From assembly GCF_019977735.1 (NCBI RefSeq), contig NZ_AP025018.1, positions 10,730,580-10,794,579 on the forward strand: a stretch of DNA of 64,000 bases. The letters are read 5' to 3'. The first letter of the stretch is position 1; every line of letters begins with the position of its first letter. The notes under the pieces were generated by a model. It saw only the letters and a list, made by a program, of their open reading frames with translations. It did no database searches and had not been told where the DNA came from. The DNA is from Calothrix sp. PCC 7716. GTDB lineage: Bacteria; Cyanobacteriota; Cyanobacteriia; Cyanobacteriales; Nostocaceae. The position numbers and the translations under genes were made by a program. This document shows, in pieces, positions 18,154 through 43,000 of the stretch.

Positions 18154-18357
18154 CTACAACAACCCAAAATTAATGACACGAACCACTAGCTTGAGCAAAT
18201 GTCTTTCTGCATATAACAACAGTACTTATACGCAAATCAGTAGAACTAACAATCAGTGAATATACGTATACTTACTGATGACAGATATACGCTTAATTAG
18301 ACAGGATGTGCAAGGGAAATCACATAATTGCTCTCTATTTCCTGCCACATACTCGAT

Positions 18358-19116
18358 ATGGCTCACATCCAACTTGGTAATGAAATTGTTACAGCCACAG
18401 AAGTTATTCCGCTGTTGGCTGCCTATCAATTACTCCCGCAGTTACAGCGCGAACTAATTATAGATAAAGTTATCGCCGATATAGAATTAACGCCTGAAGA
18501 GAAAAATAATACTATTTTCACATTTTATAAAAATAATCAAATCACCACACCTGAGACGCTTAATGGTGTACTTCAACGCTATGCCATGACAGTAGAACAG
18601 TTGGAAGTATTAGCCACAAAACAACTACGGGTTGAAAAATTCAAGCAGGCAACCTGGGGAGGAACACTTCAACAAAACTTTCTTCAATTTAAACCCCAGT
18701 TGGATAAAGTTGTATATTCCCTGCTGCGTACCCAAGATATGGAAACAGCACAAGAGTTGTACTTTCGTATAAAAGCAGAAGAACAAAGCTTTGCCGACTG
18801 CGCGCGGGAGTTTTCACAAGGACAAGAAGCAGCTACTGGAGGTTTAATTGGACCAATACCCTTATCACAACCACATCCAATAATTGCTCAAAAACTTTCC
18901 ATCTCAACACAAGGGCAGTTATGGACACCTATGAAGCTAGAAAACTGGTACATAATTCTACGTTTAGAGAAACTGATACCAGCGCAGTTAGATGAAGCGA
19001 CTAGTGCAATGCTACTTAACCATTTGTTTGAAAAATGGCTAGGTGAACAACTCCAACAAAACCCTATTTCCATTCAAGATACACAAAATACATTAAATAG
19101 TATTTTAACTATATAA
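18358..19116 (+). CDS. PpiC-type peptidyl-prolyl isomerase of the secretion locus
   Basis: 252 residues from the ATG at 18358; a TTG 30 bp upstream is less likely. There is no signal peptide. The N-terminal half is helical (SurA-like, VIPLLAAYQLLPQLQRELI), and the C-terminal half is a parvulin-type domain (about 120-225): LLRTQDMETAQELYFRIK, FADCAREFSQG, ATGGLIGPIPLSQ. It ends 7 bp before the ABC exporter starts, so the two are cotranscribed. Such PPIases often sit before HlyB/HlyD genes in cyanobacteria. As a cytosolic protein it may keep the very large substrates unfolded or assist their export; this is inferred from position. Confidence 0.85.
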   Translation: MAHIQLGNEIVTATEVIPLLAAYQLLPQLQRELIIDKVIADIELTPEEKNNTIFTFYKNNQITTPETLNGVLQRYAMTVEQLEVLATKQLRVEKFKQATWGGTLQQNFLQFKPQLDKVVYSLLRTQDMETAQELYFRIKAEEQSFADCAREFSQGQEAATGGLIGPIPLSQPHPIIAQKLSISTQGQLWTPMKLENWYIILRLEKLIPAQLDEATSAMLLNHLFEKWLGEQLQQNPISIQDTQNTLNSILTI

Positions 19117-19123
19117 CAAAAGA

Positions 19124-22093
19124 ATGATATCAAATTCTACCACTATAATTGACTTTCTAGCTGCGACTCCTCCTTTCGATAGGATGAACATAGCTGATAT
19201 TGAAGAACTTGCTAAAAAACTTTTACCATTACGTTATCGAATGGGGCAAGCCATAGTTGTCAAAGATAATTTGCCCGCAAAAATAGCTATTCTTTACACT
19301 GGACAAGCACGCTTATTGGGATATCCTTTAGATGTTCCAGCACCTGATACATTAGAACGCCTTAAACCTGGTGCTTTGTGCGGCGCCGTTAGCATAATTA
19401 GAGGTGTAGCGTGCGAGACAGTAATTTCCTCAGTAGAGTCCGTTTGTCTCACCCTAAGTACAACAGATTTTCAAGACTTATTATCTAAGCAACCCCAAGT
19501 TGCCGAGTATTTTCGCTCGTATCATAGTCTAATTGAAATATACGATTTAATAGCGAAAGAACTTCAGCGTCGAGGTAAAGTAGTAGACAATTTAAAAGAA
19601 CTCGCTACGACCGCTGCAAATAATTCAACTGTTCTTAACCTTGCCGCAGGAAAAATTCCACTTTCGCAGTTAGACCCCAACTTGTTATGGCTAGTTAGTA
19701 GTGGTGACTCTAATTATCCAGTCGGCGCCAACATAATTTTGGATAATCAGGATTATATTCAGTCTACTGGAAATGGAATTCGCCTGATTGGGTTTACTGA
19801 CCCAACTTTATCATTTAAGCAAGCTGAAACCATTTCGCCAGATATTTCGGTAGAAGAAAATTCTTGGCAAGATATTCCTTTTGCTCCCGAAAAACCCGAA
19901 GCAGCACCGACCAAAACCAGTAAACAGCAAGTAAAATACCCATTTGTTCGCGGTCGTGGACCAGTTGATGCAACACTTGCTTGTCTCCACATGCTTTCAC
20001 AATATTGGGAAATACCCTGGAGAAGGGATGTTTTACATCGCGCGCTGTCGAACAGCTATAAGCGGACAGGTAAAGTATCTATAGAATTGTGTGGAGGACT
20101 AGCTGAGTTGATAGGCATAAAAGCGCAACTAGTACAAGCACCAGCAGTTGCCATATCTCAACTCCCCACTCCAGTGCTTATTCCATATCTTGATACTTAT
20201 GCAATTATTTTCAGTTCATCCGAAAAAGAATTAACCCTCGCTATCCCCGAACAAGGTATTGTTAGTAAAAAAACTAAAGATTTTGTAGAAAGTTGGGGAG
20301 AAGAAGGACAAGTATTATTACTACAATCTACACCTGAAACTCCTAAAAAACGATTTGGCTTAAGTTGGTTTTTACCAGCAATTAAAAAGCATAAAGTTGT
20401 ATTAATCGAAGTATTTATCGCTTCCTTATTTGTACAGCTACTCGGATTAGGCAACCCATTAGTTACTCAAGTAATTATAGATAAAGTAATTATTCAAAAC
20501 GGCGCCAATACGTTAAATGTATTAGGGTTTGTTTTAATTGCAATGGCATTTATTGAGGGAATAATCACCTGGTTACGTACAAACTTATTTGCCGATACTA
20601 CAAACCGTATAGATTTATCTTTAGGAAGTGAAGTTATTGACCATTTATTAAGACTACCACTACGCTATTTTGAAAAACGTCCAGTTGGGGAAATATCTTC
20701 TAGAATAAACGAGTTAGAGAACATACGTTCGTTTCTGACAGGTACTGCTCTTACCGTTGTACTTGATGCCATTTTCTCGGTCATTTATATAGCAGTGATG
20801 ATATTTTATAGTTGGTTGCTAACTCTTGTCGCACTAGCAACCGTACCGTTATTTGCTATATTAACATTTATATTTGCTCCAATTGTTCGTAGCCAAACTC
20901 GAACTAAAGCTGAAAAAAATGCTGAAACTCAATCATATCTAGTCGAAGTTGTATCGGGTATTCAAACTGTTAAAGCTCAAAATATTGAACTCAATTCTAG
21001 ATGGCAGTGGCAGCAGCGTTACGGGAAGTATATTAGTGCCAGTTTTGATAATGTACTAACTAGTAATACTGCAAGCTCTCTAAGCAACTTTCTAAATAAA
21101 TTATCTAACTTATTATTACTGTGGGTAGGCGCCTATCTTGTACTTCAAGGAGAAATTACCCTTGGAGAACTTATAGCATTTAGAATTATAGCTGGATATG
21201 TTACCAGTCCATTATTGCGATTAATTCAACTTTGGCAAAACTTCCAAGAAACAGCACTATCACTAGAACGATTAGCAGATATTCTCGATACTCCCCAAGA
21301 ATCAGAACTAGCTGGTAAAAGTAATATTCCTATGCCAGTTATTAAAGGGCAAGTACGTTACGAAAATGTTACCTTTAGCTTTGCCAAATCTCCAAATCCT
21401 CAACTAAATAACATCTCAGTTGAAATTCCCGCAGGTGCATTTATTGGAGTAGTTGGACAAAGTGGCGCCGGAAAAAGTACCTTAACCAAACTTATCCCCC
21501 GACTCTACGAACTTGATGCAGGCAGAATTTTAATTGACGGATATGACATCAGTAAAGTTGAGTTATATTCGCTACGTCAACAAATCGGGATGGTGCTACA
21601 AGACACTCTTCTATTTGATACCACAGTTCAAGAAAATATTGCTTTAACAATGCCCGATGCCACTCCCGAAGAAATTGTCGATGCAGCTAAAATTGCCTGC
21701 GCGCATGATTTCATAATGAGCTTGCCCAATGGATATAACACGCGCGTTGGTGAAAGAGGAGCAGCATTATCTGGTGGACAAAGACAAAGAATTGCAATCG
21801 CACGTACTGTACTACAAAATCCACCGCTGTTAATTCTTGACGAAGCAACCAGCGCACTTGACTACGCGACCGAACGGCAGGTGTGCTTAAATCTACAAAT
21901 CGCATTTAAAGGACGCACGGTCTTATTTATTACGCACCGTCTAGCAACAATCCAAAATGCTGACATAATCTTAATGATGAACGCTGGAAAAATTGCAGAA
22001 CAAGGTACTCATAGTCAATTAATGGCAATGAAAGGACTTTATTACTGCTTATCTCAACAACAACAAGCCTCAGAAAATATAATAACTGTTTAA
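19124..22093 (+). CDS. HlyB-like ABC exporter with cNMP-binding-like and C39-like domains
   Basis: 989 residues. About 1-150 is a cyclic-nucleotide-binding-like domain, although the usual Arg of its phosphate cassette is not evident in CGAVSIIRGVACETV. About 270-400 is a C39-peptidase-like domain in which the usual DCGAACL reads DATLACL and the usual HFVVL reads YAIIF, so catalytic Cys and His are both lost, as in HlyB's C39-like domain. About 420-700 is the six-helix membrane domain and about 735-985 the nucleotide-binding domain: Walker A GQSGAGKST, signature LSGGQRQRIAIAR, Walker B LLILDEATSALD, H-loop ITHRL. Type I exporters of this kind secrete uncleaved RTX-like proteins. Downstream lie HlyD and two giant candidate substrates. 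Confidence 0.93.
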   Translation: MISNSTTIIDFLAATPPFDRMNIADIEELAKKLLPLRYRMGQAIVVKDNLPAKIAILYTGQARLLGYPLDVPAPDTLERLKPGALCGAVSIIRGVACETVISSVESVCLTLSTTDFQDLLSKQPQVAEYFRSYHSLIEIYDLIAKELQRRGKVVDNLKELATTAANNSTVLNLAAGKIPLSQLDPNLLWLVSSGDSNYPVGANIILDNQDYIQSTGNGIRLIGFTDPTLSFKQAETISPDISVEENSWQDIPFAPEKPEAAPTKTSKQQVKYPFVRGRGPVDATLACLHMLSQYWEIPWRRDVLHRALSNSYKRTGKVSIELCGGLAELIGIKAQLVQAPAVAISQLPTPVLIPYLDTYAIIFSSSEKELTLAIPEQGIVSKKTKDFVESWGEEGQVLLLQSTPETPKKRFGLSWFLPAIKKHKVVLIEVFIASLFVQLLGLGNPLVTQVIIDKVIIQNGANTLNVLGFVLIAMAFIEGIITWLRTNLFADTTNRIDLSLGSEVIDHLLRLPLRYFEKRPVGEISSRINELENIRSFLTGTALTVVLDAIFSVIYIAVMIFYSWLLTLVALATVPLFAILTFIFAPIVRSQTRTKAEKNAETQSYLVEVVSGIQTVKAQNIELNSRWQWQQRYGKYISASFDNVLTSNTASSLSNFLNKLSNLLLLWVGAYLVLQGEITLGELIAFRIIAGYVTSPLLRLIQLWQNFQETALSLERLADILDTPQESELAGKSNIPMPVIKGQVRYENVTFSFAKSPNPQLNNISVEIPAGAFIGVVGQSGAGKSTLTKLIPRLYELDAGRILIDGYDISKVELYSLRQQIGMVLQDTLLFDTTVQENIALTMPDATPEEIVDAAKIACAHDFIMSLPNGYNTRVGERGAALSGGQRQRIAIARTVLQNPPLLILDEATSALDYATERQVCLNLQIAFKGRTVLFITHRLATIQNADIILMMNAGKIAEQGTHSQLMAMKGLYYCLSQQQQASENIITV

Positions 22094-22213: not shown

Positions 22214-23776
22214 ATGAATTCTAATAGTAACGGGAAAGCAGATTTTTCTCAAAGTTCAATAATTTCAACGCAGGAATTAAATGCAAAACTACCCCAAAGC
22301 GCAGAAGAAATTCAACAAAAACCACTTAGTTCTGCAATCAGACACGTTCCTAAATTTGAGCAACCTGTTGTCTTAAAACAACCTCGTAAATGGTCGCGCG
22401 CTATACTATGGGGATTAATGCTGGCAACAACTGGTACAGTAATATGGGCAAACATCGCCAAAATAGAAGAAGCTGTTTCTGCTACTGGAAAACTTGAACC
22501 ATCCGGTGCCACAAAAGATGTGCAGGCGCCTATTGGTGGAGTAGTTAAAGATATATTTGTTGAGGATGGTGAGCTAGTAAAAGCGGGAGATAAATTAATT
22601 GTACTTGACAACACAACCGCCAAAGCACAATTAGAGTCATTACAAAAAATCCGTACCTCTCTAGCTCAAGAAAACCAGTTTTATACTGCTCAGTTACGCG
22701 GAGAATCGGTTAACTCATCCACAATCCTACTTCCTAGCTCAATTCTAGATTTAACAAAAAGTCGTGCTGCATTAGTCGCAGAAAATCAAGTTTATCGCAG
22801 CCAGCTTAATGGTGTTGCCGCAGGTCAACTAACTCTTGAACAACGCGAACGCATTTCTGGAACCCAAATTGAACTAAATGCGCGAGTTGCAGCAGCTTCT
22901 TTAGAAATTGACCAGCTTCGGCGCCAGCTAGAACAAACTGACATCCGTATTGCTGCTACAAAAGATACGCTAAAAATGAATCAAGGAATATTAAATAACA
23001 TTTCAGGGCTAGCAAAACAAGGCGCCATATCGCAACTACAATTTCTTAAACAACAGGAAGAAGTGCGAAACGCTCAATCTCAACTCGACCAGCTAACAAA
23101 AGAGAAATTTAAATTACAGGCAGAAATTGCTGAAGGGCAAGCAAAATTACAAAACACTACAGCAGTTTCTCGTAAAGATTGGCTAGACCGAATTGCTGAA
23201 AATGCCAAACGTATCGCTGAAATTGACAGTCAAATGAATAAATCGATTGTCGAGAATAGCAAACGGATGGCGGAAATAGATTCACAAATCAGCCAAGCAA
23301 AAATGAATCTTAAATATCAGGTAATAACGGCGCCTGTTAATGGTACAGTGTTTGAACTCAAAGCAAAATCTTCTGGGTTCGTAGTTACTGGTAGCGAACC
23401 AATTTTAAAAGTAGTACCCACAGATAAACTTATTGCTAAAGTTTTTATTACCAATAAAGATATTGGTTTTGTCAAAGAAGGAATGACCGTTGATGTCAGA
23501 ATTGACTCATTTCCGTTTAGCGAATTTGGTGATATTAAAGGTAAACTTGTGTCGATAGGTTCAGATGCACTACCACCAGACCAAATTTATCCCTTCTATA
23601 GATTTCCTGCAAAAGTAGAACTTCAAACTCAAAATTTAAAAGTTAATGAACGCAATATAGCTTTACAGTCCGGGATGGGAGTAAGTACGAATATCAAGAT
23701 TAGAGATAGAACTGTAATGAGTATATTTGCTGATATGTTTAGCTCTAGTGTTGAAAGTCTGAAGAACGTGCGGTAA
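22214..23776 (+). CDS. HlyD-family periplasmic adaptor
   Basis: 520 residues. A ~60-residue cytosolic Gln/Pro-rich start is followed by one membrane helix (about 62-80) and a biotinyl-lipoyl half-motif (GKLEPSGATKDVQAPIGG, VKDIFVEDGELVKAGDKL). A long helical hairpin of roughly 250 residues follows (heptads around AISQLQFLKQQEEVRNAQSQ), then the second lipoyl half (VITAPVNGTVFEL) and the beta-barrel (VRIDSFPFSEFGDIKGKLVSIGSDAL). HlyD proteins bridge the inner-membrane ABC exporter and an outer-membrane TolC-type channel. The hairpin is long, suited to a direct tip contact with TolC. Same operon direction as the exporter, but separated by the 81-bp palindromic element. No TolC gene is in the window. 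Confidence 0.92.
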   Translation: MNSNSNGKADFSQSSIISTQELNAKLPQSAEEIQQKPLSSAIRHVPKFEQPVVLKQPRKWSRAILWGLMLATTGTVIWANIAKIEEAVSATGKLEPSGATKDVQAPIGGVVKDIFVEDGELVKAGDKLIVLDNTTAKAQLESLQKIRTSLAQENQFYTAQLRGESVNSSTILLPSSILDLTKSRAALVAENQVYRSQLNGVAAGQLTLEQRERISGTQIELNARVAAASLEIDQLRRQLEQTDIRIAATKDTLKMNQGILNNISGLAKQGAISQLQFLKQQEEVRNAQSQLDQLTKEKFKLQAEIAEGQAKLQNTTAVSRKDWLDRIAENAKRIAEIDSQMNKSIVENSKRMAEIDSQISQAKMNLKYQVITAPVNGTVFELKAKSSGFVVTGSEPILKVVPTDKLIAKVFITNKDIGFVKEGMTVDVRIDSFPFSEFGDIKGKLVSIGSDALPPDQIYPFYRFPAKVELQTQNLKVNERNIALQSGMGVSTNIKIRDRTVMSIFADMFSSSVESLKNVR

Positions 23777-25095: not shown

Positions 25096-28000
25096 ATGGA
25101 TACTAATAATAACCCCATCTTTGAAGCTCAAAATCAGCCAATTCAGCCTAATCCTTTAGAAGTTCAATCTTTACCATTAGGTATTTCGGCGCCAAATCGT
25201 TTGCATGAGGGTGTGAGTTTACCCTTGGCGCCAACACTTTTAGAGCCATCTCAGTTTGAGTTGGTGGAAGGATTCGGAGTAAATCTTATATACACGGTTG
25301 GAAAAAAAGATTTACTATCAAGTACTCACAGTAGAGATATTTTATCTCTTAATGTGGATGGTCTGATTGCCGGTACTCTTCAACCTGGGGATTCATTAAT
25401 GAATCCAACGGCTACTTTACTTACATCGCCGAAAAGTGAAATTATCTTTATTGATGCAGGGGTTGAGGATTACCAGCAAATTGTTACTTCCATAAATCCA
25501 TTCGCTGAGGTAGTTCTTCTTGATGGTAATCTTGATGGGGTAACTCAAATTAGTCAAATATTAAGCGAACGTCAGAATCTTAGTAGCGTTCATATCGTTT
25601 CCCACGGCGATGATGCAAAGCTACAGTTGGGTACGACCTCGTTGACTAACGGTAATTTGGAACAGTACGCGCGCCAAATTCAAGGATGGAGTTCATCACT
25701 TAGTGACACAGCAGATATTCTCATCTATGGATGTGATGTTGTTAGGAGTGAAGACGGCAAAGAATTTATTCGTCAATTTAGCCAACTTACAGGCGCCGAT
25801 GTTGCTGCATCCGATGACTTAACTGGTTCCAACACACTTGGTGGAGATTGGCAGCTTGAATATTCGATTGGTTCGATTGAGTCAAAGACTATAGAGAGTG
25901 ATTATCGTCATCTACTTTCAACATCGATGACGATTCAGAATATTTACGATGCGTGGCGTTCTGGTAATCTCCCTAGTTTAAATACAGTCAACTTAACGCT
26001 TGATGGTAATTCAGTTCTGAATGGTGACTTTACGGTTGCTTCTAACACCTCAGAATTGCTTAAGCTAACTGGCGCCAATATTAGTTCCTTCGTAGGTACA
26101 GGACTTAGCACTGGTGATACAACTGATGATAAAGGTCTAAATATTACTGGTGGTAGTTTAGATTTAACTATCAACGCTGACAATACCTACACATATTCTT
26201 TATCCGGACAAGGCGGATTAACTAACGTTGTAGGATTAACCTTATCTGTAGATAATGCAAAAGCTAGTGGTACTCAAACTGGTACAACTGTTGAACTAAC
26301 AAATTTTGACTTAGGAGTTGGAAACGTCACTCGTCTATTTGGTGACAGTCTTTTCTACAATTTAGAAAATAACCAGCTTTCGTTTGCAACAACTAATGCA
26401 TCAGCCAACGTTGGTAACGGCGCAAATACCCAAAATACATCCGATGATGCCCTTTTAGCAATAACCAACGCCAGCTTTAATATTTCTAGTGACGGACAAG
26501 ATTATAGCTACGCTATTAGCCAAGGTAGTGCATCCTTAAATGGAATAGGTAACCTATCGCTGTCTGTTGGTAATGTTACAGCAACAGGTAATTTATCCAA
26601 CATCTCGCTTCAACTCAGTAATTACGCATTGGGTATAGATAGTATTGCCCAGTTAAGCGGCACCACTCTTGATGTCACCGTTCAAAATAGTAATGGTAGT
26701 CAAATTAGTTTAAGTGCTAACAATGTTTCTGCTTTTGCTGGTTATGGCGCCGACTCTAAGAGTAAAGTTGATGATATTGGGTTAGAAATTAACAACGCTG
26801 GCTTGAATTTACAGTTAAATGCTGATAAAAGTTACTCTTACAGTTTAAATAGCGGCGCTCTTGCAGTTCGCGGTATTGATGGATTAATGTTGTCTGCTGA
26901 TACTATTAACGCAGCAGGTAATAGTACAACAAATAGTTTCAATCTTAGTCTTACCAACGCGGAAGTTGGTTTAGCTAACGCTGTTAGTTTCAGTGGTGCT
27001 TCTTTAGAATTTAAAGTAGAAAAAACAGGTACAGATAGCATCATTTCTTTGTTAGGTCAAGATTTATCTACCTTGATTGGCGATAACAAAGGCACTATCA
27101 CTAACAGCGATGACACTGGTTTAGTTATTGCTAATGCGGATTTAAATTTAAGTATAAATGCGGATAATACTTATAGTTATAACTTAAATAATGCCGACAT
27201 TTCCGTTCGTGGTATTGATGGGTTTACTGTTGAAGCTAATAATGTAAATGCAAGCGGGAACGAGTCGAGCGATTTTAGCATCAAACTTGAAGACGCTAAA
27301 TTAGGTTTAGGTAGTCTTGCTTACCTAAGTGGTGCCGCTATCGAGCTTAATCTGAAAGGAACTGGCGCCAATCGAACAGTTTTGTTTACAGGTAAAAATC
27401 TATCAGCGTTTGCTGGTTATGGAGCAGATAATGACCAGCAAAATGATGATATTGGTTTGGCGATTAGTAGCGCTGACTTAGAATTAATACTGAATTCAAA
27501 TAATACTTATAGCTATAATTTAAGTAGTAGCTTAGTAGCAACTCGTGGAATTAGTGGATTAGAAGTTTCTGCGAGTTATATATTAGCTCAAGGCAACCAA
27601 GATAATATTAAATTCAGCCTAAATAACAGTAAGTTAGGTTTCGGTAATCTTATTAAACTCAGCGGAGCTAAAATTGAATTCGCAGTCGAAAAAGTTGGTG
27701 TCAATAAAAATATTACATTTAAAGGTCGAAATTTATCCGCTTTTGCTGGTTATGGAGCAGCTACTGGCGAAGAAACTGATGATATTGGCTTTGTAATTAG
27801 CGATGCTGACTTAGAATTATTACTCAATGCCGATAGTAAATATACTTATAATCTCGAAACTAGCGCGATTGAAACGCGCGGGATACCTGGATTTAATTTA
27901 GATGTTGACTCTGCCAAGCTTATTGGTGATAAAGATAAACTTTCTATAAATACTAAAGCTTTTGAATTAGCTTTAGCTTCGGTTGCAAAGGTAAAAGGCG

Positions 28001-31000
28001 ATGCGCTTTCACTCAAGATAGAAAACAGTAATATAGATATTAGTACTACTAATGCTTCTGCTTTAATTGGCTATGGTGCAAACACCGAGATAACTAGCGA
28101 TGATATTGGCATCTCGGTTAAAAACGCAACCTTTAATGCTAATGTTCAAAATAATAAAAATTATAGCTATACAATCAACCAAGCTAATGGTGCATTAGTT
28201 GGTGTTGATGGAGTCACTTTAGAAATTAATCAAATTGATATAACTGGCAACCAAAGTCAAACTACTGTAAAAACAGGTAGCTTTGAACTAGGATTAAAAG
28301 ACGTAGGTTATATCAAGGGTGAAGGTCTAGCATATGACCCTTCAGAAAACCTCACAGAACCTCTGCGTATAGCTGCCAAAAATATTCAAGCATTTGTTGG
28401 CGTTGGTGGTGGTACCAGTCAAGAATCAGGTATTAAATTAACTGATGGCACATTAGGGCTAGTTGTATACAAAGACGGTGAGAAAAACTATGCCTTAATT
28501 GCTAGCGGTAAAGCAGGATTAATTGGTGTTCAAGATTTAACGTTAGATGGGGAGTTAGCTGTCCGTATTAACCGCACGGGTAAAGCAATTAATGAAACAA
28601 TTGGATTGGGTGATGGTAGTTCTGTTGACGTTATCTTTACTGAGGAACAGAAAAACCAACTCCGGGTTGAAGGTCTAGTAGATGCAAATGTTACAGGCAA
28701 TCTAGCTTTTGGTGGTAAATTCTCGATGGAGTGGTTTAACGGTGAAACTCCTGGCGCCACTAACCAAAGTTCAAATATTGCAGCAAATAACTTTAGCTTA
28801 GATAAGCATAAAACTACTATAGACGAAGCGTTCTATCAAGAACTACGTTCTAAGTTAGCCACTGAAAAAGCACGCTTAGAAGCAGAAAATTCTACAGTAA
28901 AATCTATTAATGCTGTAGTAGATAGCTTTGCATTTAATGAAGACCGAGTTGATGTTGAGCGCAATTATCTAATTTTAGATAAACCTCATAACTTTGTAAC
29001 TGGGCAGAAAGTTATTTACACAGCAGGTAGCGGCAATCAAGTTATTGGTGGTTTAGTTGAAGGTCAAGAATACTATATTCTAACTGTTAACGACCGGACT
29101 ATTCAACTAACTTCAACATTGGGGGGTGCAGCAATTGACTTAACAAGCGCTAGTGTTGGCAATCACCAATTAAGTGAAGTTATCGATTTTGGCGCCACAA
29201 ATAGCATCAACGTAGATTTGAAAGAAAATCTAATTCTATTTAGTCAACCCCACGGTCTAACTGATTTGAACCAAGTCGTATATGATGCTGGTACAAATCA
29301 AGCGATTGGTGGATTAGAAAACGGTAAAATTTATACAGTTGAAGTCGTAAGTCCCACATCAGTACGCTTACGTTCTTTGCAAGGAAATTTAATAGTTGAT
29401 TTAACGAACGATAGTTTTGGAGAACATTCTCTACGTCCAGTTATCACATTTCCAACAGAAAATCAACCCAGCAGCGTTGACACTAACAAAGACACAATTA
29501 ATTTTGCTGGTTCGCACTATCTGCAAACAGGCGATAAAATTCAGTATTATGACCCTATTAATGGCGACCCGATAGGCGGTACTTTTAGTTCGCTACAAAC
29601 TGCGACAGAAGTACATTCATTCTATGTAATTAGAGTTAACGATAATACGATTAAGCTTGCCAAAACCCGTACTGATGCATTGGCAAATCGTGGTTTAAAT
29701 TTAACAACTCCTGGAACCGGGTCACAAACAATGACCCTAATTGAACGTTATGCAGGTGGTATTGAAGACCGTAGTCATTTAGATTTCCAACAAAAGTCAA
29801 CAATTACATTTGTAAATAAAACTACAATTAAGCTCAACTACAACCACAGTTTGACAACTGGTCAAGCAGTTATGTTACAGCTTGACCCAAATGCCGCTGA
29901 CCCAAGTTCACCAATTAATGGATTAACGGCAATTGCTTATTCGACTAACCCACAGGTCTATAGTGTTGCCCATGAAAATGTTTACTATGTCAAGATAACT
30001 TCAAAAGGTAATCTACAATTTGCTAGGTCAAAAGAAGATTTAGAAAACAATCAATTTATTGCCCTAAGTAAACCTAGTGATGGTTCTGCTTTCCGCTTAA
30101 TGCCGACATGGACTTTTGTATCAGATGGAAAGCAAACAGTCGATGTTCAACAAGATACGATTAATTTTACATCGCCTCATAACTTCAGCGATGGTACCGA
30201 AGTTCGATATGAATTCGATGCGGGTAATACTGCAATTAGTGGATTAAATAGTGGTAGTACTTATTACATTAAACGTATTAGCAATACTGCGATTCAATTA
30301 ACAGCAACCCTAAGTGGCGCCGCAATAAATCTCACTAGTGATGGCAAAGGAAATCATCGCTTTGTCCAAACTCCAAGTGTATTTACACCAACGAATAATA
30401 TCAAAGTTGACGTTGATACGAACGAGATTTTTCTACCCACATCTGCGAATTTAGAAGTTGGCGCCGCTGTCCAATATAATTCTGCTAACCAAGCTATTGG
30501 TGGTTTAGAAGAAGGTAAGATTTACTACGTAGTTGCTAAAAACGGTAATGCAATCAAATTTGCTGCAACAGTTGGTGGTAGTGTAATTGATTTAACTAGT
30601 GCAGGTGGCGCCGGCAACCATCGCTTTACCCTCACAGGAGTGGAATTTACTGCCAATAACGACACCGCATCAAAACGTAGTGCAGAAGCATTAGCGTTAG
30701 CACAAAGACTGAGCAATGATTTAGGTATACAAGTCACTTTAACAGCAGGAAATATTACCTCCGTTAATGACCCCAACGCAACAACTAATATTATTGATGC
30801 TGGGCGTAAGGTTGCTATACGTGATGTTGCTGTTATTTACGACGAGAAACAGTTAGAAACAAGCAAGCTATTAATCGGTATAAATGATGCCTATGCTTTC
30901 ATGGGTACTGACTACGGGACTGCGAATGAAACAGGAGTCAAAATTAGCGATGCCAATTTGGGACTTGCCCTTTATAAGACAATAGACCATCGTCAGGGAG

Positions 31001-34000
31001 CTACATCACAACCGATGGGTTACGCTTTGACAGGAAATGGAGCGGGTGCATTAGTCGGGGTAGATAGCTTAAAATTACAAGGTAATTTAGCGGTTCAACT
31101 TAACCGTAGTGGACAAGCAGTAGATGAAACTATTGTCACACCGGGTGGTTCTATTGCGTTAAAGTTCGCTACTCCAGATAACATCACGCAAATTAACGGT
31201 GCAGCGAACTTAGATGTTGCTGGTTTAGTCGGATTATCAGGTAATTTCAGCTTCCAACAGGTCAATGGTAAAACGGAAATTACAGGTAAAGATATTACCA
31301 CCTTTGTTGGTCGTGGTGCAGATACTCCAGAAATTAGCGATGATATTGGTTTAAAACTAACTCAAGCCAATTTTGATCTAGCTTTAAATTCTGATAAGTC
31401 TTACAATTACAACTTGAAAAATGCCAACTTTGAAGTTGTTGGTATAAATGGATTAACTTTATCTGCTACCTCAGTTAGTGCTACAGGCGATAATACAGGT
31501 GATATTTTTAACTTAAGCCTAGGTACCGCAGCTTTAGATTTAGGTGGTCTTTTAAATTTAAATAGCGATGCTCTACAGTTTAAACTACAAAAGAGCGGCG
31601 CCGAAAAAACTATCTCTTTTAGTGGCAAAAATATATCAACATTCGTCGGTTATGGTTCAGAAACTTCAGATATTAGCGATGATGTTGGGTTAGAAATTAG
31701 CAATGCTGACATTGATATACTGTTTAATCCCGATAAAACTTATAGCTACAGTTTGCTTAATGGCATAGTAAAAGCTCGTGGGATTAATGGATTTAATATT
31801 AGTGGCGAAAAAGTTAATGTTATCGGCGACCAAGATAATACATCTGTAACTACAGAAAACTTCGCTTTAGGTTTAGGCGGATTTGCTAGCATTACTGGTT
31901 CATCACTGCTATTTAAGTCAGAGAAAACAGCAAACGCCAAGAAATATACTTTCAGCGCAAACGGAATTTCTAGTTTAATTGGAAATGGCGCCAATACTAC
32001 CGATACAAGTGATGATTTAGGGCTATCCTTATCAGGTGCGGGACTAGGTATCACCCTCAATAGCGATAAAACTTATACATATAATCTTACTAATGCGAAC
32101 GCTACACTCGTCGGTGTAAATGGTTTAGTTCTTGATGCGAAGGGAGTCAATGCATCGGGTGATAATACCAGCACCAACGTAAATATTAATAGCTTTGAAT
32201 TTGCTGCTGGCGATAATGCAAGAATTTCTGGCGCCGCATTAACCTTCACAAAGAACGCGAATCAAATTAGCTTCAGTGGTAGTAATATTAATGCCTTAGT
32301 TGGAAATGGCGCCAGCACAACTGATATAAGTGATGACCAAGGTTTATCTTTATCTGGTGCAGGATTAAGCGTTATCCTTAACAGCGATAAGACTTACAGC
32401 TACAACTTAACTAATGCGAACGCAGCATTGGTTGGCGTAACAGGTTTAACCCTCGATGCCAAAGCGGTTAATGCAAATGGCGATAACACCAATACCAACG
32501 TCAGTATTGGTAGCTTTGAATTTGCTGCTGGCAACAACGCACGAATTTCTGGTACTGCACTAGTCTTCACCAAAAACACAAATCAAATTAGCTTCAGTGG
32601 TAGCAATATTAATGCCTTGGTTGGGAATGGTGTCAGCACAACTGATACCAACGATGACCAAGGGTTATCTCTATCTGGTGCAGGTTTAAATGTTATCCTT
32701 AACAGCGATAAGACTTATAGTTACAACTTAACTAATGCGAACGCTGCACTAGTAGGTGTAACAGGTTTAACCCTCGATGCCAAAGCGGTTAGTGCAAATG
32801 GCGATAACACCAATACCAACGTCAGTATTGGTAGCTTTGAATTTGCTGCTGGCAACAACGCAAGAATTTCTGGTTCTGCATTAACCTTCACCAAAAACAC
32901 AAATCAAATTAGCTTTAGTGGTAGCAATATTAATGCCTTGGTTGGAAATGGTGCTAACACCACTGATACAAGTGACGACCAAGGTTTATCTTTATCTGGT
33001 GCTGGTTTAAGCGTTGTCCTCAACAGCGATAAAACTTACAATTACAACTTAACTAATGCGAATGCTGCACTCGTCGGTGTAAATGGTTTAGTTCTTGATG
33101 CCAAGGGAGTTAACGCATCGGGTGATAATAACAGCACTAACGTAAATATAAATTCCTTTGAATTTGCTGCTGGCAACAACGCAAGAATTTCTGGTGCTGC
33201 ATTAACCTTCACAAAGAACGCAAATCAAATTAGCTTCAGTGGTAGCAATATTAATGCCTTAGTTGGAAATGGAGTTAGCACAACTGATGTAACCGACGAT
33301 CAAGGTTTATCTTTATCTGGTGCAGGATTAAGCGTTATCCTTAACAGCGATAAGACTTACAGCTACAACTTAGCTAATGCGAATGCTGCACTCGTCGGTG
33401 TAAATGGTTTAGTTCTTGATGCCAAGGGAGTTAATGCATCAGGTGATAATACCAGCACCAACGTGAATATAAATTCCTTTGAATTCGCTGCTGGCAACAA
33501 CGCAAGAATTTCTGGTGCTGCATTAACCTTCACAAAGAACGCAAATCAAATTAGCTTCAGTGGTAGCAATATTAATGCCTTAGTTGGAAACGGTGTTAGC
33601 ACAACTGATGTAACCGACGATCAAGGACTATCGCTCTCAGGTGCGGGTTTAAATGTTATCCTCAACAGCGATAAGACTTATTCTTACAACCTCACAAACG
33701 CAAACGCTGCACTTGTTGGTGTGACAGGACTCACTCTTGATGCAAAAGGAGTCAACGCAAGTGGCGATAACACCAACAGCAATGTCAATATTGGTAGCTT
33801 TGAATTTGCTGCTGGCAACAATGCGCGAATTTCTGGTACTGCACTAACCTTCACCAAAAACGCAAGCCAAATTAGCTTCAGTGGCAACAACATTAATGCC
33901 TTGATTGGGAATGGTGTCAGCACAACTGATACCAACGATGACCAAGGGTTATCCCTATCTGGTGCAGGTTTAAGTGTTATCCTCAACAGCGATAAAACTT

Positions 34001-37000
34001 ATTCTTACAATCTCACGAACGCAAACGCTGCACTTGTTGGTGTAACGGGTCTAACCCTCGATGCAAAAGGAGTCAACGCAAGTGGTGACAATACTAGCAC
34101 CAACGTCAATATTGGCAGCTTTGAATTTGCTGCTGGTGACAACGCGCGAATTTATGGTAATGCGCTAACCTTCACCAAAAACGCAAGCCAAATTAGCTTT
34201 AGTGGCAACAACATTAATGCTCTAGTTGGTAATGGTGTTAGCACAACTGATACAACAGATGACCAAGGATTATCTCTATCTAGTGCAGGTTTAAGTGTTA
34301 CCCTCAACAGCGATAAAACTTACAATTACAACTTAGCTAATGCGAATGCTGCACTCGTCGGTGTAAATGGTTTAGTTCTTGATGCCAAGGGAGTTAATGC
34401 ATCAGGTGATAATACCAGCACCAACGTGAATATAAATTCCTTTGAATTCGCTGCGGGTAATAATGCAAGAATTTCTGGTTCTGCATTAACCTTCACAAAG
34501 AACGCAAATCAAATTAGCTTCAGTGGCAGTAATATTAATGCCTTAGTTGGAAACGGAGTTAGCACAACCGACATAAGTGATGACCAAGGGTTATCTCTAT
34601 CAGGTGCTGGATTGAGTGTTATCCTCAACAGCGATAAAACTTACAGCTACAACTTAGCTAATGCGAACGCTGCATTGGTTGGAGTAACCGGACTCACCCT
34701 TGATGCTAAAGGAGTTAACGCATCGGGTGATAATAACAGCACCAACGTCAATATAAATTCCTTTGAATTTGCTGCTGGTAATAATGCAAGACTCTCTGGC
34801 ACTGCGCTGACCTTTAGCAAGAACGCAAATCAAATTAGTTTTAGCGGCAGTAATATTAATGCCTTAGTTGGAAACGGAGTTAGCACAACCGACATAAGTG
34901 ATGACCAAGGATTATCCCTATCAGATGCGGGGTTAAGCGTTATCCTTAACAGCGATAAAACTTATAGTTACAACTTAGCTAATGCAAATGCTGCACTAGT
35001 TGGTGTAACGGGTCTAACCCTTGATGCAAAAGGAGTCAGTGCAAGTGGTGACAATACTAGCACCAACGTCAATATTAATTCGTTTGAGTTTGCTGCTGGC
35101 AATAATGCGCGAATTTCTGGTACTGCCTTAACCTTCACCAAAAATGCAAGTCAAATTAACTTTAGTGGTAGTAATATTAATGCCTTAGTTGGAAATGGCG
35201 CCAGCACCACCGATACAAGTGATGACCAAGGATTATCCCTCTCAGGTGCGGGGTTAAATGTTATCCTCAACAGCGATAAAACTTATTCTTATAACCTCAC
35301 AAATGCAAACGCTGCACTCGTTGGTGTAACTGGATTGGTTCTCGATGCGAAAGGAGTTAGCGCAACTGGCGATAATACAAACACCAACGTTAATATTAAT
35401 TCGTTTGAGTTTGCTGCTGGCAATAATGCGCGAATTTCTGGTACTGCCTTAACCTTCACCAAAAATGCAAGTCAAATTAACTTTAGTGGTAGTAATATTA
35501 ATGCCTTAGTTGGAAATGGCGCCAGCACCACTGATACAAGTGACGACCAAGGTTTATCTTTATCTGGTGCTGGTTTAAGCGTTATTCTCAACAGCGATAA
35601 AACTTACAATTACAACTTAGCTAATGCAAACGCTGCATTGGTTGGAGTAACCGGACTCACCCTTGATGCTAAAGGAGTTAACGCATCGGGTGATAATAAC
35701 AGCACCAACGTGAATATAAATTCCTTTGAATTCGCTGCTGGCAACAACGCAAGAATTTCTGGTTCTGCATTAACCTTCACCAAAAACACAAATCAAATTA
35801 GCTTCAGTGGTAGCAATATTAATGCCTTGGTTGGAAATGGTGCTAACACCACTGATACAAGTGACGACCAAGGTTTATCTTTATCTGGTGCTGGTTTAAG
35901 CGTTATTCTCAACAGCGATAAAACTTATTCTTATAACCTCACAAATGCAAACGCTGCACTCGTTGGTGTAACTGGATTGGTTCTCGATGCCAAAGGAGTT
36001 AGCGCAAGTGGCGACAATACAACCACCAACGTTAATATTGGCAGCTTTGAATTTGCTGCTGGTAACAACGCAAGACTCTCTGGCGCCGCATTAACCTTCA
36101 CCAAAAATGCAAGTCAAATTAGTTTCAGTGGTAATAATATTAATGCCCTAGTTGGAAATGGCGCCAACACTACTGACACCAACGACGACCAAGGATTATC
36201 GCTATCAGGTGCAGGATTAAGCGTTGTTCTCAACAGCGATAAAACTTATAGTTACAACTTAGCTAATGCGAATGCTGCACTCGTCGGTGTAAATGGTTTA
36301 GTTCTTGATGCCAAGGGAGTTAACGCATCGGGTGATAATAACAGCACTAACGTAAATATAAATTCCTTTGAATTCGCTGCTGGCAACAACGCAAGAATTT
36401 CTGGTTCTGCATTAACCTTCACCAAAAACACAAATCAAATTAGCTTCAGTGGTAGCAATATTAATGCCTTGGTTGGTAATGGCGCCAGCACAACCGATAC
36501 AAGCGATGACCAAGGTTTATCTCTATCTGGTGCAGGTTTAAGCGTTGTCCTCAACAGCGATAAAACTTACAATTACAACTTAACTAATGCGAACGCTGCA
36601 CTTGTTGGCGTAACAGGACTCACCCTTGACGCAAAAGGAGTCAGCGCAACTGGCGATAATACTAGTAGCAATGTCAACATCAATTCCTTTGAATTCGCTG
36701 CTGGTAACAATGCACGACTTTCTGGTTCTGCGTTAACCTTTACCAAAAATGCAAATCAAATTAGCTTCAACGGTAGTAATATAAATGCCTTAGTCGGAAA
36801 TGGTGCCAGCACGACCGATACAAGTGATGACCAAGGGCTATCTCTCTCCGGTGCGGGATTAAATGTTATCCTCAACAGCGATAAGACTTACAGCTACAAT
36901 CTCACAAACGCTAATGCTGCTTTAGTCGGTGTAAATGGTTTAGTACTAGAAGCCAAAGGAGTTAACGCAAGTGGTGATAACACCAGCACCAATGTCAATA

Positions 37001-40000
37001 TTGGTAGCTTTGACTTTTCTGCTGGTAACAACGCAAGAATCTCTGGTACTGCGCTAACCTTCACCAAAAATGCAAGTCAAATTAGTTTTAGTGGCAACAA
37101 CATTAATGCCTTAGTTGGAAATGGCGCCAGCACTACTGATACAAGTGATGACCAAGGAATATCTCTATCAGGTGCGGGGTTAAATGTTACCCTCAACAGC
37201 GATAAAACTTATTCTTACAACCTGACTAATGCTTCGGCTGCATTGGTTGGTGTAACTGGACTGGTGCTTGATGCTAAAGGAGTGAGTGCAAGTGGCGATA
37301 ACACCAGCACCAATGTCAATATTAGTAGCTTTGAATTTGCTGCTGGTAACAACGCAAAACTCTCTGGCGCCGCATTAACCTTCACCAAAAATGCAAGTCA
37401 AATTAGTTTCAGTGGTAATAATATTAATGCCCTAGTTGGAAATGGCACCAGCACCACCGATACAAGCGACGACCAAGGGTTATCTCTATCTGGTGCAGCA
37501 CTAAGTGTCACCCTCAATAGCGATAAAACTTACAGCTACGGCTTAACGAATGCTTCGGCTGCACTAGTAGGTGTAACAGGACTCACGCTTGATGCCAAAG
37601 GAATTAGTGCAACAGGTGACAATACCAGCACCAATGTCAATATTAGTAGCTTTGAATTTGCTGCTGGTAACAACGCAAGACTTTCTGGCGCCGCATTAAC
37701 CTTTACCAAGAATGCAAATCAAATTAGTTTCAGTGGTAATAATATCAGTGCCTTAGTCGGAAATGGCGCCAGCACCACCGACACAAGCGATGATCAAGGG
37801 CTATCTCTATCAGGCGCAGGACTAAGCGTTATCCTTAACAGTAATAAGACTTACAGTTACAACTTAACTAATGCAAATGCTGCGCTTGTAGGTGTCAATG
37901 GTCTAACTCTAAGCGCAACAAATATTTCCGCTTCTGGCGACCGAGACAATACTAATGTCTCAATCGGTAAGTTTACTCTCGGTATAGGTAATGCAGCGAG
38001 ATTAGAAGGTAATGCTCTAACCTTTACCAAGAATGCCAACCAAATTAGCTTTAGTGGTAACGATATCAGCGCTCTAGTTGGAAACGGTGCCAGCACTACT
38101 GATACCAGTGATGACCAAGGTCTATCTTTATCTGGCGCCGCACTCTCGCTTAACCTCAACACAGATAAGACCTACAACTACGATCTCAGTAACGCAAATG
38201 TTGCGCTGGTTGGTATCGATGGAATCACCTTAAGTGCTAATCAAGTTTCAGCGACAGGCACCCAAGACAGCACTGATGTCAATATTGATGAGTTTACTTT
38301 GGTTGTTGGCAATGCCGCACGAATTTCTGGTAATGCTTTAACCTTTACCAAGAACTCTAACGAAATAAGTTTTAGTGGTGGCAATATAAGTGCCCTAATT
38401 GGTAATGGCGCCAGCACTGCTAGTACTAATGATGATCAAGGATTGTTGTTATCGAATGCATCTTTTATAGTCAATATCAACAGTAATAGTACTTATGCAT
38501 ATGAAATTTTCGACGCTGATGCTGGAATAGTTGGTGTTCAAGGACTTCAATTAGAGGCGAAAAATATCACTGCGGCTGGTGACCAAAATGATACCAACGT
38601 ATCTATAGGCACATTCAGTTTGGTTGCTGGAAATGCTGCGAGATTCTCAGGTGATACCCTTACCTTTACCAAGAACGCAAACCAAATTAGTTTTAGTGGA
38701 CAAAATATTAATGCTTTAGTTGGTAATGGCGCCAGCACGGATGATATTAACGATGACCAAGGTTTATCTTTATCTGGTGCGGCGATTAATGTAAGTGTTA
38801 ATCCTGACAAGACTTACAGCTACAGTCTCAGTAATGCGAATGCTGCGATAGTTGGTGTAAATGGACTTACATTAAGTGCTAGCAACATTTCTGCAAACGG
38901 TACTCAAGATAACACTAATGTTTCAATTGGTGAGTTTAATCTAGGTGTTGGAAACGTAGCGCGAATCTCCGGTAGCTCTCTCAGCTTTACTAAGAATGCT
39001 GATCAAATTAGCTTCGGTGGTAGCGATATTAACGCTTTAATCGGTAATGGTGCTGCTACAGATGATGTCAACGATGATCAAGGTTTACTCGTGTCGGGTG
39101 CGGAACTTAGTGTAATTCTTAACTCTGACAAGACTTATAGCTACGAACTTCGTAACGCCAATGCTGGTTTAGTTGGTATTGATGGGTTAACTTTATCTGC
39201 TACTGGTATAAATGCAGGTGGTAATAATAATCGAACCGATGTATCAATTACCGAGTTTGAACTAGGACTGGGTAGCATAGCCCAACTTTCTGGTCAAAAT
39301 CTCAGTTTTGTGTCGGAACAAAACGCTGATAACACTAAGCTATTAATGGCTGCTTCCAACATATCAGCTTTTGTGGGAACTGGATTTGGAACCGGAAGTG
39401 CAATGGGAGTCAAGCTCGAAAGTGCTTCTTTGGCAACGGCACTTTACAGAAGTAATAACCAAAGTACCTATGCTTTAGAAGTTGATGGTAGTGCATCTGT
39501 AATTGGAATTTCTGACTTAACCCTAGCTGGTAACTTAAAGCTTGTTGCGAACAACACAGGTAAAGCAGTTAACGAAACAATTACTTTAAGTGATGGTACA
39601 ACTAAAACCCTTGCGTTTACTGAAGCCGAAGCAAATCTTACTCGTATACAGGGACGCACAGATATTAACATCGCAGGGTTTGCTGCTGCAAAAGGCGATG
39701 TATTGATTGAGAAAAATACCATCGTTGATGCTTCGGGCAACAGTACTCGTCTGCTTGTAGGCGCCACCAATGTAACTGCGTTTATGGGCAGCAACTACGG
39801 CAGTGCAAACGCAGTGGGAGTTGAGGTTAAAGACGGTAAGCTGGGTTTAGTAATAGAACGTAGCGGTAATGCACCTTCCACATACGCCTTTAGTACTGAA
39901 GGGACTGCTGCCTTAATTGGTGTAAATAATGTCACTCTTAACGGTAACATCGCGCTTGAAGTTAACCGTATGGGTAAGGCTGTAAGTGAAATTATTAAGA

Positions 40001-43000
40001 CATCAAGTGGCGAAGTTAACATTGCATTTACTGAAACAGAGGGCAATATTACCCAAGCATCTGGTCGCTTGAATTTGGGTGTTAGTGGCTTTGCTGAACT
40101 CTCTGGTGATTTTGCAATTACTAAAACTCAAAATATTTTGAATATCGGCGCCACAAATGTAAATGCTTTTGTTGGTGCAAACGGAACTGGTGTACAAGTA
40201 GATGATGCGGCACTAGGTATGATTGTTTACACCGACCGCACCACTTCCAACTATGCCCTTAGTGCTAGTGGTAGTGCATCTCTAATAGGTATTAATGATG
40301 TCACTCTCAAAGGTAACTTAGACCTGCAAGTTAATCGTACAGGCGCCGCAGTTAACGAAACTATCTCAGTTGCGGGTCAAGATATTAAACTCAACTTTGC
40401 AACTGGCGCCGAGGTAACTCAAATAAAAGGCAAAGCAAATCTAAATGTTGGTGACTTTATAGCACTCAACGGAACTATAAGCGTTGAAAAAACAGCTAAT
40501 ACAGTTAATAACGTTACCGAAACTCAGTTATTAATAGGTGCAACTGATGTAAATGCCTTTGTTGGCTCTGGTTATGGTACAAATAAAGCTGCGGGAGTTG
40601 AAATTAAAAACGGCAAGCTAGGGTTAGTAATAGAAAGCGAGCGCAACAACACTACTAACGCAGTCACCAAAGGTTACGCACTCAAAGGAAGTGGTAGTGT
40701 AGGCATTGTTGGTATCAACGAACTTTCTGTGAGTGGCGATGTTGATATTGCAATTAACCGAATGCAAGTTCCTGTAAACGCTACTATTAACACAGATAAT
40801 GGCGCCGTCAACGTTAACTTTGCTGATGCATCACCAGTTACAGATATTAAAGGTAGCAACGTTAACTTGGGTATTGCTTCTGGGGTTGTGCGTGCGTCTG
40901 GTAATTTTGGTATGACCAAAACTACTACCGCAGAAGGCGCCAAACTACTGATAGGTATGGCAAATGTGAACGCATTTGTTGGTAGTGGTGATTCGGGTAT
41001 TAAATTAAGCGATGGTAATTTAGGTTTAGCAATCTTCTCAAATGGTGTAACCAGCAACTATGCTGTTGTTGCCAACGGTAAAGGTGAGTTTACAGGTATA
41101 GATGAACTCACAATTAAAGATACTCAATTAGAAGTCCGCATCAACCGCACTGGTAAAACAGTTAATGAATTAGTTGATGTTGGTGGTGGTAAAAACGTTG
41201 AAATCATTTTTGGTCAAGGTCAAGAAAATCAGCGTCGCGTAGAAGGTACAATTAACGCGAATGTCGCCAATGCCCTCGCATTTGGTGGTGATTTCTCGAT
41301 GGAATGGTTCACCGAGCAAACTCCAGGTCAGAAAAACTTAACTTCTAACGTTACAGATAATAACCTCACTCTGTCAAAAGACCAAACCGCTATTGATGAA
41401 ACGCTATATCAACAGTTACGCTCTAGTCTTGCTGCCGAAAAAGCTCGTTTAGAAGAAAGTAAGTCTACGATTAATTCGATTACTGCTACTGTTAATGGGT
41501 TTGCCTTTAACGAAGATAGAGTAGATATTGCCCTCGACCGTTTGGTAATGGATAAACCACATGGTTTAGTGAACGGACAAAAGGTTGTTTACAACTCTGG
41601 TAGTGGTAACACAGCAATTGGTGGTTTAGTTGACGGTCAAGAATACTTTGTCATCGTTGTTAATAATAATATTGTCCAACTAGCAACAACACTTGGTGGA
41701 CAAGCTGTAGACTTAACTAGTGCCAGCAAAGGTATGCACCAATTACGCCAAGTTATGGAATTTGGCGCCACCAATGCAATTACTGTTGACGTACAAAAAG
41801 AGCAAATATTATTTAGCAATTCTCACCAACTAACTAACGGTAGCTTAGTACGCTACGAAGCTGGACAAAATAATGTTATCGGTGGTTTACGTAACAACGG
41901 TTTATATAAAGTCGAAGTTGTAAATGCGACAACTGTTACACTTCGCGATAGCCAAACTAATGCGGTTATTGACTTAACATCCGGTAGTTTCGGTCAACAT
42001 GCACTGCGTCCAGTTACAACTACCGCAACCGAGAATAACATCAACGTTGATGTAGATAAAGAACAAATCCACTTCCCAAATAATCACAATTTAGCTAACG
42101 GTGCATTAGTACGTTACGATGCTAAAGGTAATACTGCAATTGGTGGTTTAATAGATGGCGCCTCCTATTACGTCAAATCAATTGATAGCAAAACCATACA
42201 ATTATCTGCAACAATTAATGGCGCCGCAATTAATTTAACTAGTGATAGCTTCGGTGAACATGCACTTGTTCTTCAAAAGTCTCTCACCTTTGACACTGAA
42301 AATAAACCAGGCAATGTAAATATTACTGACAATACCATTACATTTGCTGGTAAACACTTATTGCAAACAGGGGATAAAATTGATTACCATTACCCTGATG
42401 ACGGCAGTGCTGTAGGTGGTACATTTGATACCTTAAGCCAGCAATATGATAAATTTCCGTACTACGTTATCCGTGTAAACGATACAACAATTAAACTAGC
42501 TAAAACTCGTGCCCAAGCACAAGCTGGTCAAGCAATAGACATAACAAATCCTGGTTCTGGTACACAAACCCTAACACTGATTGAACGCAATAACGAAAAT
42601 CGCGACCATTTAAAATTCCGTGAAGTTGGTAGTATATCAGTAACAAACCAAACAATTAAGCTAAACTACGCGCACAATTTAGAAACAGGACAAGCAGTTG
42701 TCTTCCAGCTTGATTCTACATATTCTGAGCGTTCGCCATTACTTGGAATTACCCCAGATATTTACTCAATGGGGCAATCTCAAGTCTATGACTCAACCGT
42801 AGCTGAGACATATTTTGTTAAACGTATTAGTGCTACAGAAATCAGACTTGCCAAAACACTCGATGATTTAAATAACAATCGTTTTATTAACGTTAGTAAA
42901 AATGAATCGAGTCCAAGAGCAACTTATCGCTTCATGCCCATCAATCACTTTAGCTCTCAAGGTAAGCAAGTGGTGGATGTGCAAAACGACCAAATCACAA

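Follow-up and report, generated by a model that had tools for sequence, protein, structure and literature searches.

The window analysed here is a stretch of 64,000 nucleotides from Calothrix sp. PCC 7716 (contig NZ_AP025018.1, positions 10,730,580 to 10,794,579, forward strand), part of a genome of 12.37 Mb. It encodes two large exported proteins, a giant and a smaller companion, each carrying a DUF4347 domain near its N-terminus. Judged from sequence and predicted structure, this domain is probably an active peptidase, and we would class it as a clan CD family of its own that acts like a self-processing domain. His170 and Cys213 of the giant are supported as its catalytic dyad by family conservation, the predicted fold and an alignment to the type VI secretion effector Tce1.

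All sequence features given in a preliminary description of this DNA were present in the window. PF14252 was matched at aa 116-266 of the giant (E 8.6e-57, 191.9 bits) and at aa 16-177 of the companion (E 8.7e-46, 156.1 bits; gathering cut-off 24.6 for both). Translation of positions 25096-54939 confirmed Cys213 as the sole cysteine of the 9,947-aa giant, and translation of 55224-63419 yielded Cys110 and Cys153 as the only cysteines of the companion. The spacing of His and Cys was as described, 43 residues in the giant (His170/Cys213) and 40 in the companion (His70/Cys110). A second SHG of the giant, at residue 5972, has no Cys.

Predicted fold and clan membership

Clan CD peptidases have the His before the Cys, each at the end of a hydrophobic strand, with a Gly after the His and a small residue before the Cys. 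DUF4347 fits this sequence pattern (His-Gly and small-Cys, each at a hydrophobic strand end). An AlphaFold2 (AF2) model of aa 100-300 of the giant had a predicted local distance difference test (pLDDT) score of 90.7. In model numbering, a strand at 63-69 runs into SHG at 70-72, and a strand at 103-112 into GC at 113-114. The predicted fold is a caspase-like alpha/beta sheet in which His and Cys each close one of two consecutive strands, as had been anticipated. From this strand order and the alignment to Tce1 we infer that the side chains of His170 and Cys213 would lie near each other in space. A fold search of the model returned glycosylphosphatidylinositol (GPI) transamidase and a legumain-type ligase among its structural matches, and the nearest solved relative of DUF4347 is an injected type VI effector. 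In profile searches of the Protein Data Bank (PDB), entry 9qpe was matched at E 0.15 at first, at 0.001 with a 37-row set to which divergent members had been added, and at 0.0059 with an 86-row set. An NCBIfam scan of 34 members gave nothing consistent.

Some comparisons weigh against this assignment. Plain Foldseek with a second model returned caspases and legumains mixed with flavodoxins, dehydrogenases and receptors. Alignment of DUF4347 with hhalign gave a probability of 1.4% for Peptidase_C14 and 0.5% for CHAT (29/30 sequences used for each), compared with 4.0% for response regulators as a control (30/30 sequences); all comparison families were drawn from related genomes. The alignment to these cyanobacterial CHAT sequences was non-significant, with His paired to His and Cys to Cys. 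Gingipain-family (C25) loci were left out of the comparisons. CHAT peptidases (SAVED-CHAT, Craspase TPR-CHAT) are intracellular defence proteases, unlike the exported DUF4347 heads.

Human ECT2L (PDB 11xu chain A1, residues 291-459) aligned over nearly the whole DUF4347 profile with E 0.005 and 0.084, the alignment at E 0.084 being without His and Cys. On the strength of this weak match, ECT2L may be an inactive family member from animals.

Conservation of the dyad and cysteine depletion

Invariance of His and Cys across DUF4347 homologues was checked in a set chosen without regard to the cysteine, made up of PF14252 profile matches in whole genomes and 80 further stretches from those match lists. 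It held 146 domains, 138 of them with a residue in both dyad columns (8 were dropped). His was found in 131/138, Cys in 135/138 and both in 131/138, so that the pair is kept in nearly all profile-found domains. The seven exceptions comprised three with His replaced by Gln and Cys by Ser (L181, L191, L225) and four that had lost only the His (L020, L220, L127, L140). Trp83, Trp137 and Gly129 of the profile, which look structural, match the dyad residues in conservation; dyad conservation by itself is therefore no proof of catalysis. A second large set of 80 loci was retrieved with a pattern containing YGC. Since the Cys of its domains is present by construction, it was not counted as conservation.

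The economy of cysteine outside the domain is a stronger argument than dyad conservation. It was determined in 87 proteins from the YGC-containing pattern (22/87 ending at a contig or locus edge), and depletion outside the domain is independent of that pattern. Downstream of DUF4347, 63 Cys were counted in 135,891 residues (0.46 per 1,000), compared with 8.7 per 1,000 in neighbouring reading frames of at least 250 residues at related loci (n = 381). No Cys followed the domain in 60/87 proteins. At the neighbour rate, the giant would be expected to hold about 87 Cys, and one is observed.

In two Thermoplasmatota metagenome-assembled genomes (MAGs; L104, L114), the domain is preceded by 448-450 residues that include a hydrophobic segment at the N-terminus. 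The following 3,300 residues contain 7 and 6 Cys, respectively, above the usual for the set.

Boundary motif behind the domain

DUF4347 ends in an aromatic-x-x-hydrophobic-Leu/Phe motif. In the profile-found set, 107 domains have a residue in the column of the boundary Tyr, and in 105 of them it is Tyr; 31/138, including the giant, had a gap because the local match stops early. Counts were made on the 228 of 231 collected domains that had at least 45 residues after the conserved Trp, a pool that includes the YGC-pattern loci and loci retrieved with a dyad-dead query. The motif was found in 206/218 dyad-intact vs 2/10 dyad-dead domains, and in 112/122 vs 2/7 of the profile-only subset. Fisher's exact test of motif against dyad state gave 3e-8 on rows that are not independent. 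The chance rate was 19/214, 15/213 and 13/207 in downstream segments of equal width (6-9%) and 20% in shuffled tails, so the 2/10 among dyad-dead domains is close to the chance expectation; both motifs still fall within the usual range of places.

Matched tails had Gly/Ser at P3 (66%), Val/Ile at P2 (70%), Leu (86%) or Phe (12%) at P1 and Ala/Pro at P1' (57%), where P5, P2 and P1 are partly set by the search motif and P3 and P1' are free of it. Conservation dropped towards background after P1'. Confidence of the giant model, in successive tens from residue 161, was 95, 83, 70 and 57, high up to the motif and falling behind it. Around the boundary of L085 it was 97, 80 and 49.

Among divergent members from small-genome cyanobacteria, L131-L134, L143 and L144 retain the His and a WSC cysteine, and L132-L134 and L143 are without the boundary motif. 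A further small-genome cyanobacterium (L136, G181) has a 10,753-aa reading frame with a DUF4347-like N-terminal match without SHG; its size is reminiscent of the Synechococcus motility protein SwmB.

Lineages without the dyad

A Gln/Ser domain was used as query against 192 genomes of the window's taxonomic family. Six distinct genes were recovered (L332-L337), three of them the genes of L181, L191 and L225. The boundary motif was found in 0/6, and behind DUF4347 each of the six carries a fervidolysin-type prodomain and a match to Pfam Peptidase_S8. Scans of five close relatives with an intact dyad showed a GH18 chitinase in L015, L338 and L341 (in L338 five residues from the DUF4347 match), a C-type lectin and cadherins in L339, and no recognised passenger in L340. 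A tree was built from 128 of the 231 domains, taking all dead or motif-less domains longer than 100 residues and half of the remainder (every second one). In it the Gln/Ser domains, six in number, formed one clade beside dyad-intact L015 (100/97), and all dyad-dead domains fell in three places; the program's own tally of three sets them against the motif-less rows only. On the simplest reading of these sequences, an S8 passenger with its own processing protease would have made both dyad and cut site dispensable. L127 and L140, which lost the His, are also without the boundary motif. The self-processing that had been proposed for DUF4347 thus gains indirect backing from the conserved motif and from its loss in one dyad-dead lineage.

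Other observations speak against a cut at this site. Of the four types of dyad-dead domain, two (L020, L220) retain the boundary, and the dead domains occupy only three places on the tree, so that the co-loss rests on one clear event. The subtilase fusion may merely have a different joint. The motif stood at one spacing in 167/206 domains and could be an ordinary last strand. As written, it was absent from 12 dyad-intact domains, of which L095, L197 and L211 are one residue off and four are divergent small-genome forms. In the literature, as far as its accessible text goes, neither a substrate nor a cut is reported for any DUF4347 protein.

Position, passengers and export setting

The N-terminal placement noted earlier for the domain was confirmed: in 87 proteins a median of 39 residues separated it from the earliest start codon available, and fewer than 20 did so in 22/86. 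A signal-like hydrophobic core was found in 5/86 N-terminal extensions, two of them from archaeal MAGs. Within 540 residues behind the domain (87 proteins), Pfam matches were to L-type lectin (9), bacterial Ig (8) and Calx-beta (7), followed by cadherin-like, FG-GAP, GH18 and similar families (25 of 53 families listed). No Pfam match was found within 540 residues behind the domain of the giant.

The giant has the features of a type I substrate. Genes for an ATP-binding cassette (ABC) exporter and HlyD lie directly upstream, with a PpiC-type isomerase before the transporter; a Sec signal is absent, and 11 RTX-like GGxGxD motifs occur from residue 8768 onward, near the C-terminus. The companion shares the exporter neighbours, and no GGxGxD motif was found in it. 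Elsewhere the picture is partial. At least three GGxGxD motifs (RTX-like repeats) were present in 24/63 complete proteins, and only 3/80 loci, many of them short, had a gene related to the transporter or adaptor of the window. Relatives of isomerase, transporter and HlyD were found near the DUF4347 genes of L101 and L102. The earlier claim that these are type I substrates holds in the window and in part beyond it; the 3/80 loci led us to reject the idea that a neighbouring transporter is the rule.

The C39-like part of the transporter reads DATLACL. Active C39 members have D-C-G at the corresponding position, so this part probably cuts no leader peptide. The transporter fuses cyclic-nucleotide-binding, degenerate C39-like and ABC exporter parts, which hints at nucleotide-controlled export.

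A DUF4347 paralogue in the same genome (L006 1471-2910; L007, C1:7371086-7373614) is split inside the domain by an opposite-strand 350-aa reading frame that resembles an IS605-type accessory protein. An Escherichia coli plasmid (L362 11773-24474) encodes an 'Ig-like' protein of about 4,460 aa with a DUF4347 head, the dyad and a YDGLL boundary; Citrobacter and Hafnia plasmids were among the matches listed, at the same identity.

Table 1. Coordinates of the two exported proteins, their DUF4347 features and the export genes in the window
Feature	Position	Strand	Details and basis
Giant exported protein	25096..54939	+	9,947 aa; single Cys; translation
DUF4347 (PF14252) of giant with boundary, aa 116-274	25441..25917	+	Pfam aa 116-266; AF2 model
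Giant SHG, putative catalytic His170	25600..25608	+	Translation; family conservation
Giant YGC, putative nucleophile Cys213	25726..25734 (Cys codon 25732-25734)	+	Translation; family conservation
Giant boundary motif YRHLL, aa 270-274, proposed self-cleavage after Leu274	25903..25917	+	Cut inferred from sequence
Companion exported protein, 2,731 aa	55224..63419	+	DUF4347, cadherin-like domains, C-terminal DUF4114; Pfam
Companion SHG, His70	55428..55436	+	Translation
Companion YGC, Cys110	55545..55553	+	Translation
Companion boundary motif YAGVF, aa 174-178	55743..55757	+	Aligned with last residues of DUF4347 family
PpiC-type peptidyl-prolyl isomerase, just upstream of transporter	18328..19116	+	Pfam Rotamase E 3.6e-9
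Type I transporter (cNMP-binding, C39-like, ABC; cNMP, cyclic nucleotide)	19124..22093	+	Pfam
HlyD-type membrane fusion protein	22214..23776	+	Pfam HlyD_3 E 9.8e-23

Proposed mechanism and alternatives

DUF4347 would be a clan CD (caspase-like) cysteine peptidase that heads large exported proteins at their N-terminus. Export of type I substrates starts with the C-terminus, so a folded head would pass last. Most likely the domain would cut its own chain just past its end, following the Leu of the conserved boundary Y-x-[GS]-[VI]-L|[A/P], and so part the head from its passenger, be it adhesin, lectin or enzyme. The outcome would be maturation of the passenger or the freeing of a protein that the channel had retained. 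Taking sequence and model together, we lean with some reservation towards a head that cuts itself off at the boundary. Tentatively, by analogy, DUF4347 may combine a LapA module and LapG in one piece: a plug held in the type I channel whose self-cut after Leu frees the passenger. The proposal of a peptidase head on type I substrates is partly supported, by the predicted fold, the putative dyad, the N-terminal position and the window's exporter; nothing here spoke for the surface anchoring once suggested with it.

An active clan CD peptidase could instead work in trans on surface or target-cell proteins, as proposed for Tce1 and Tce2, with the giant as its carrier. The injected effector that is the nearest solved relative favours this, as does the yeast toxicity of Tce2, which, in the accessible part of its report, needs the predicted active site. 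The Pfam-recognised passengers, among which enzymes or surface domains of lectin, Ig, cadherin and similar type predominate, and the loss of the boundary motif together with the dyad in the Gln/Ser lineage make it unlikely. Also unlikely is a non-proteolytic, LapA-like plug by which the N-terminus would be retained in the channel, the dyad being a relic or serving other chemistry. The N-terminal position of the head would suit such a plug, as would the genomes of the phylum, of which 1/292 has LapG, 0/292 LapA-type modules above cut-off and 74/292 DUF4347; a relic, however, would hardly keep its Cys in 135/138 of a family whose proteins otherwise avoid Cys.

A transpeptidase that would link the passenger by a covalent bond to an acceptor on the surface, comparable to GPI transamidase, ligase-type legumains and PorU, another transpeptidase-type protein, is improbable. 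GPI transamidase and a legumain-type ligase were among the structural matches, but no acceptor or anchoring motif turned up (no systematic search was made), and with cleavage behind the head the acyl-enzyme would stay with the head and the passenger would be the leaving group. Least probable by far is a structural or lipidated Cys in a domain that resembles clan CD by chance: LIYGC is faintly like a lipobox, but a lone Cys makes an internal disulphide impossible, it is part of a folded domain that in most cases has no Sec-like signal (a signal-like core in 5/86 extensions), the Gln/Ser lineage has lost Cys along with His, and both readings were rejected on these grounds.

Comparison with known systems

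Tce1 (PA0256) and Tce2 (PA2372) are effectors of the H3 type VI secretion system in Pseudomonas aeruginosa. For Tce1, which is labelled DUF4347, a 2026 paper already gives a clan CD-like fold with a putative dyad, and the available text of an mBio paper calls the domain uncharacterized (PMC8262886). PA0256/Tce1 reduced E. coli survival in 2021 work. In the accessible part of the 2026 paper neither effector markedly altered E. coli growth, Tce1 was without effect on yeast, and Tce2 was toxic to yeast via its predicted active site with no known target; these results count against a peptidase of the proposed kind. Tce1 and Tce2 are small cargo loaded into Hcp and have no giant passenger, unlike the DUF4347 adhesin heads. 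Boundary motif and type I export are not discussed in the accessible text on these effectors.

C80, the protease domain of MARTX and clostridial glucosylating toxins, has a His/Cys dyad, as DUF4347 putatively does, and it cleaves itself. Its cut follows a Leu that is preferably flanked by small residues (PMC2900308; PMC2780291, as far as their accessible text goes). The DUF4347 boundary was compared with this: P1 is Leu in 86% and P1' Ala/Pro in 57%, but P2 is mostly Val/Ile. Weak similarity to Pfam Peptidase C80 was found in 51/86 members (best E 1.6e-4); the domain of the giant scored 14.1 bits (E 0.057), below the cut-off of 23.8. C80 sits within its toxin and cuts upstream of itself, whereas DUF4347 is N-terminal with the proposed cut behind it. 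Inositol hexakisphosphate (InsP6) activates C80 through conserved Lys/Arg, according to the accessible text of PMC2900308. Lys or Arg was found in none of the 30 most conserved DUF4347 columns, and the giant's domain has 8 K+R and 24 D+E; variable basic residues could still form a pocket. Since neither the profile cut-off nor a conserved InsP6 basic pocket was reached, DUF4347 was not filed as C80.

The N-terminal retention module of LapA is cut by a separate protease, LapG. In the LapA/LapG/LapD and DvhG systems, as presented in the accessible text, a cut directly behind an N-terminal adhesin module frees the adhesin, as proposed here for DUF4347 (PMC13090378). LapG is a separate periplasmic protein, whereas the DUF4347 protease would be built into the module. 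The LapA retention module NF033682 had 0 matches in the window's genome. Across 292 genomes of the phylum it was found above cut-off in 0/292 and weakly in 13/292.

Distribution and significance

DUF4347 was present in 74/292 sampled genomes of the phylum and also occurs in proteobacteria, other phyla and plasmids. PF14252 is still labelled as of unknown function in the Pfam copy used. A literature search, made without most subscription journals and bioRxiv preprints and partly on incomplete texts, found neither a peptidase role of DUF4347 at an adhesin head nor a description of the boundary motif or its co-loss with the dyad. Within that literature, the clan CD-like fold and putative dyad of Tce1 are already known; the adhesin-head peptidase proposal, the boundary motif and the co-loss are new.

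If the proposal is true, self-removal of the head would explain how giants of about 10,000 residues mature or are released without LapG. Cyanobacteria, nearly all without LapG in this sample, would have their own control of adhesin release. The catalytic Cys and the cut site would be readily testable, and the domain might serve as a self-removing tag. One family would then link type VI effector proteases, exported adhesins and, by a weak match, perhaps the dyad-less human ECT2L.
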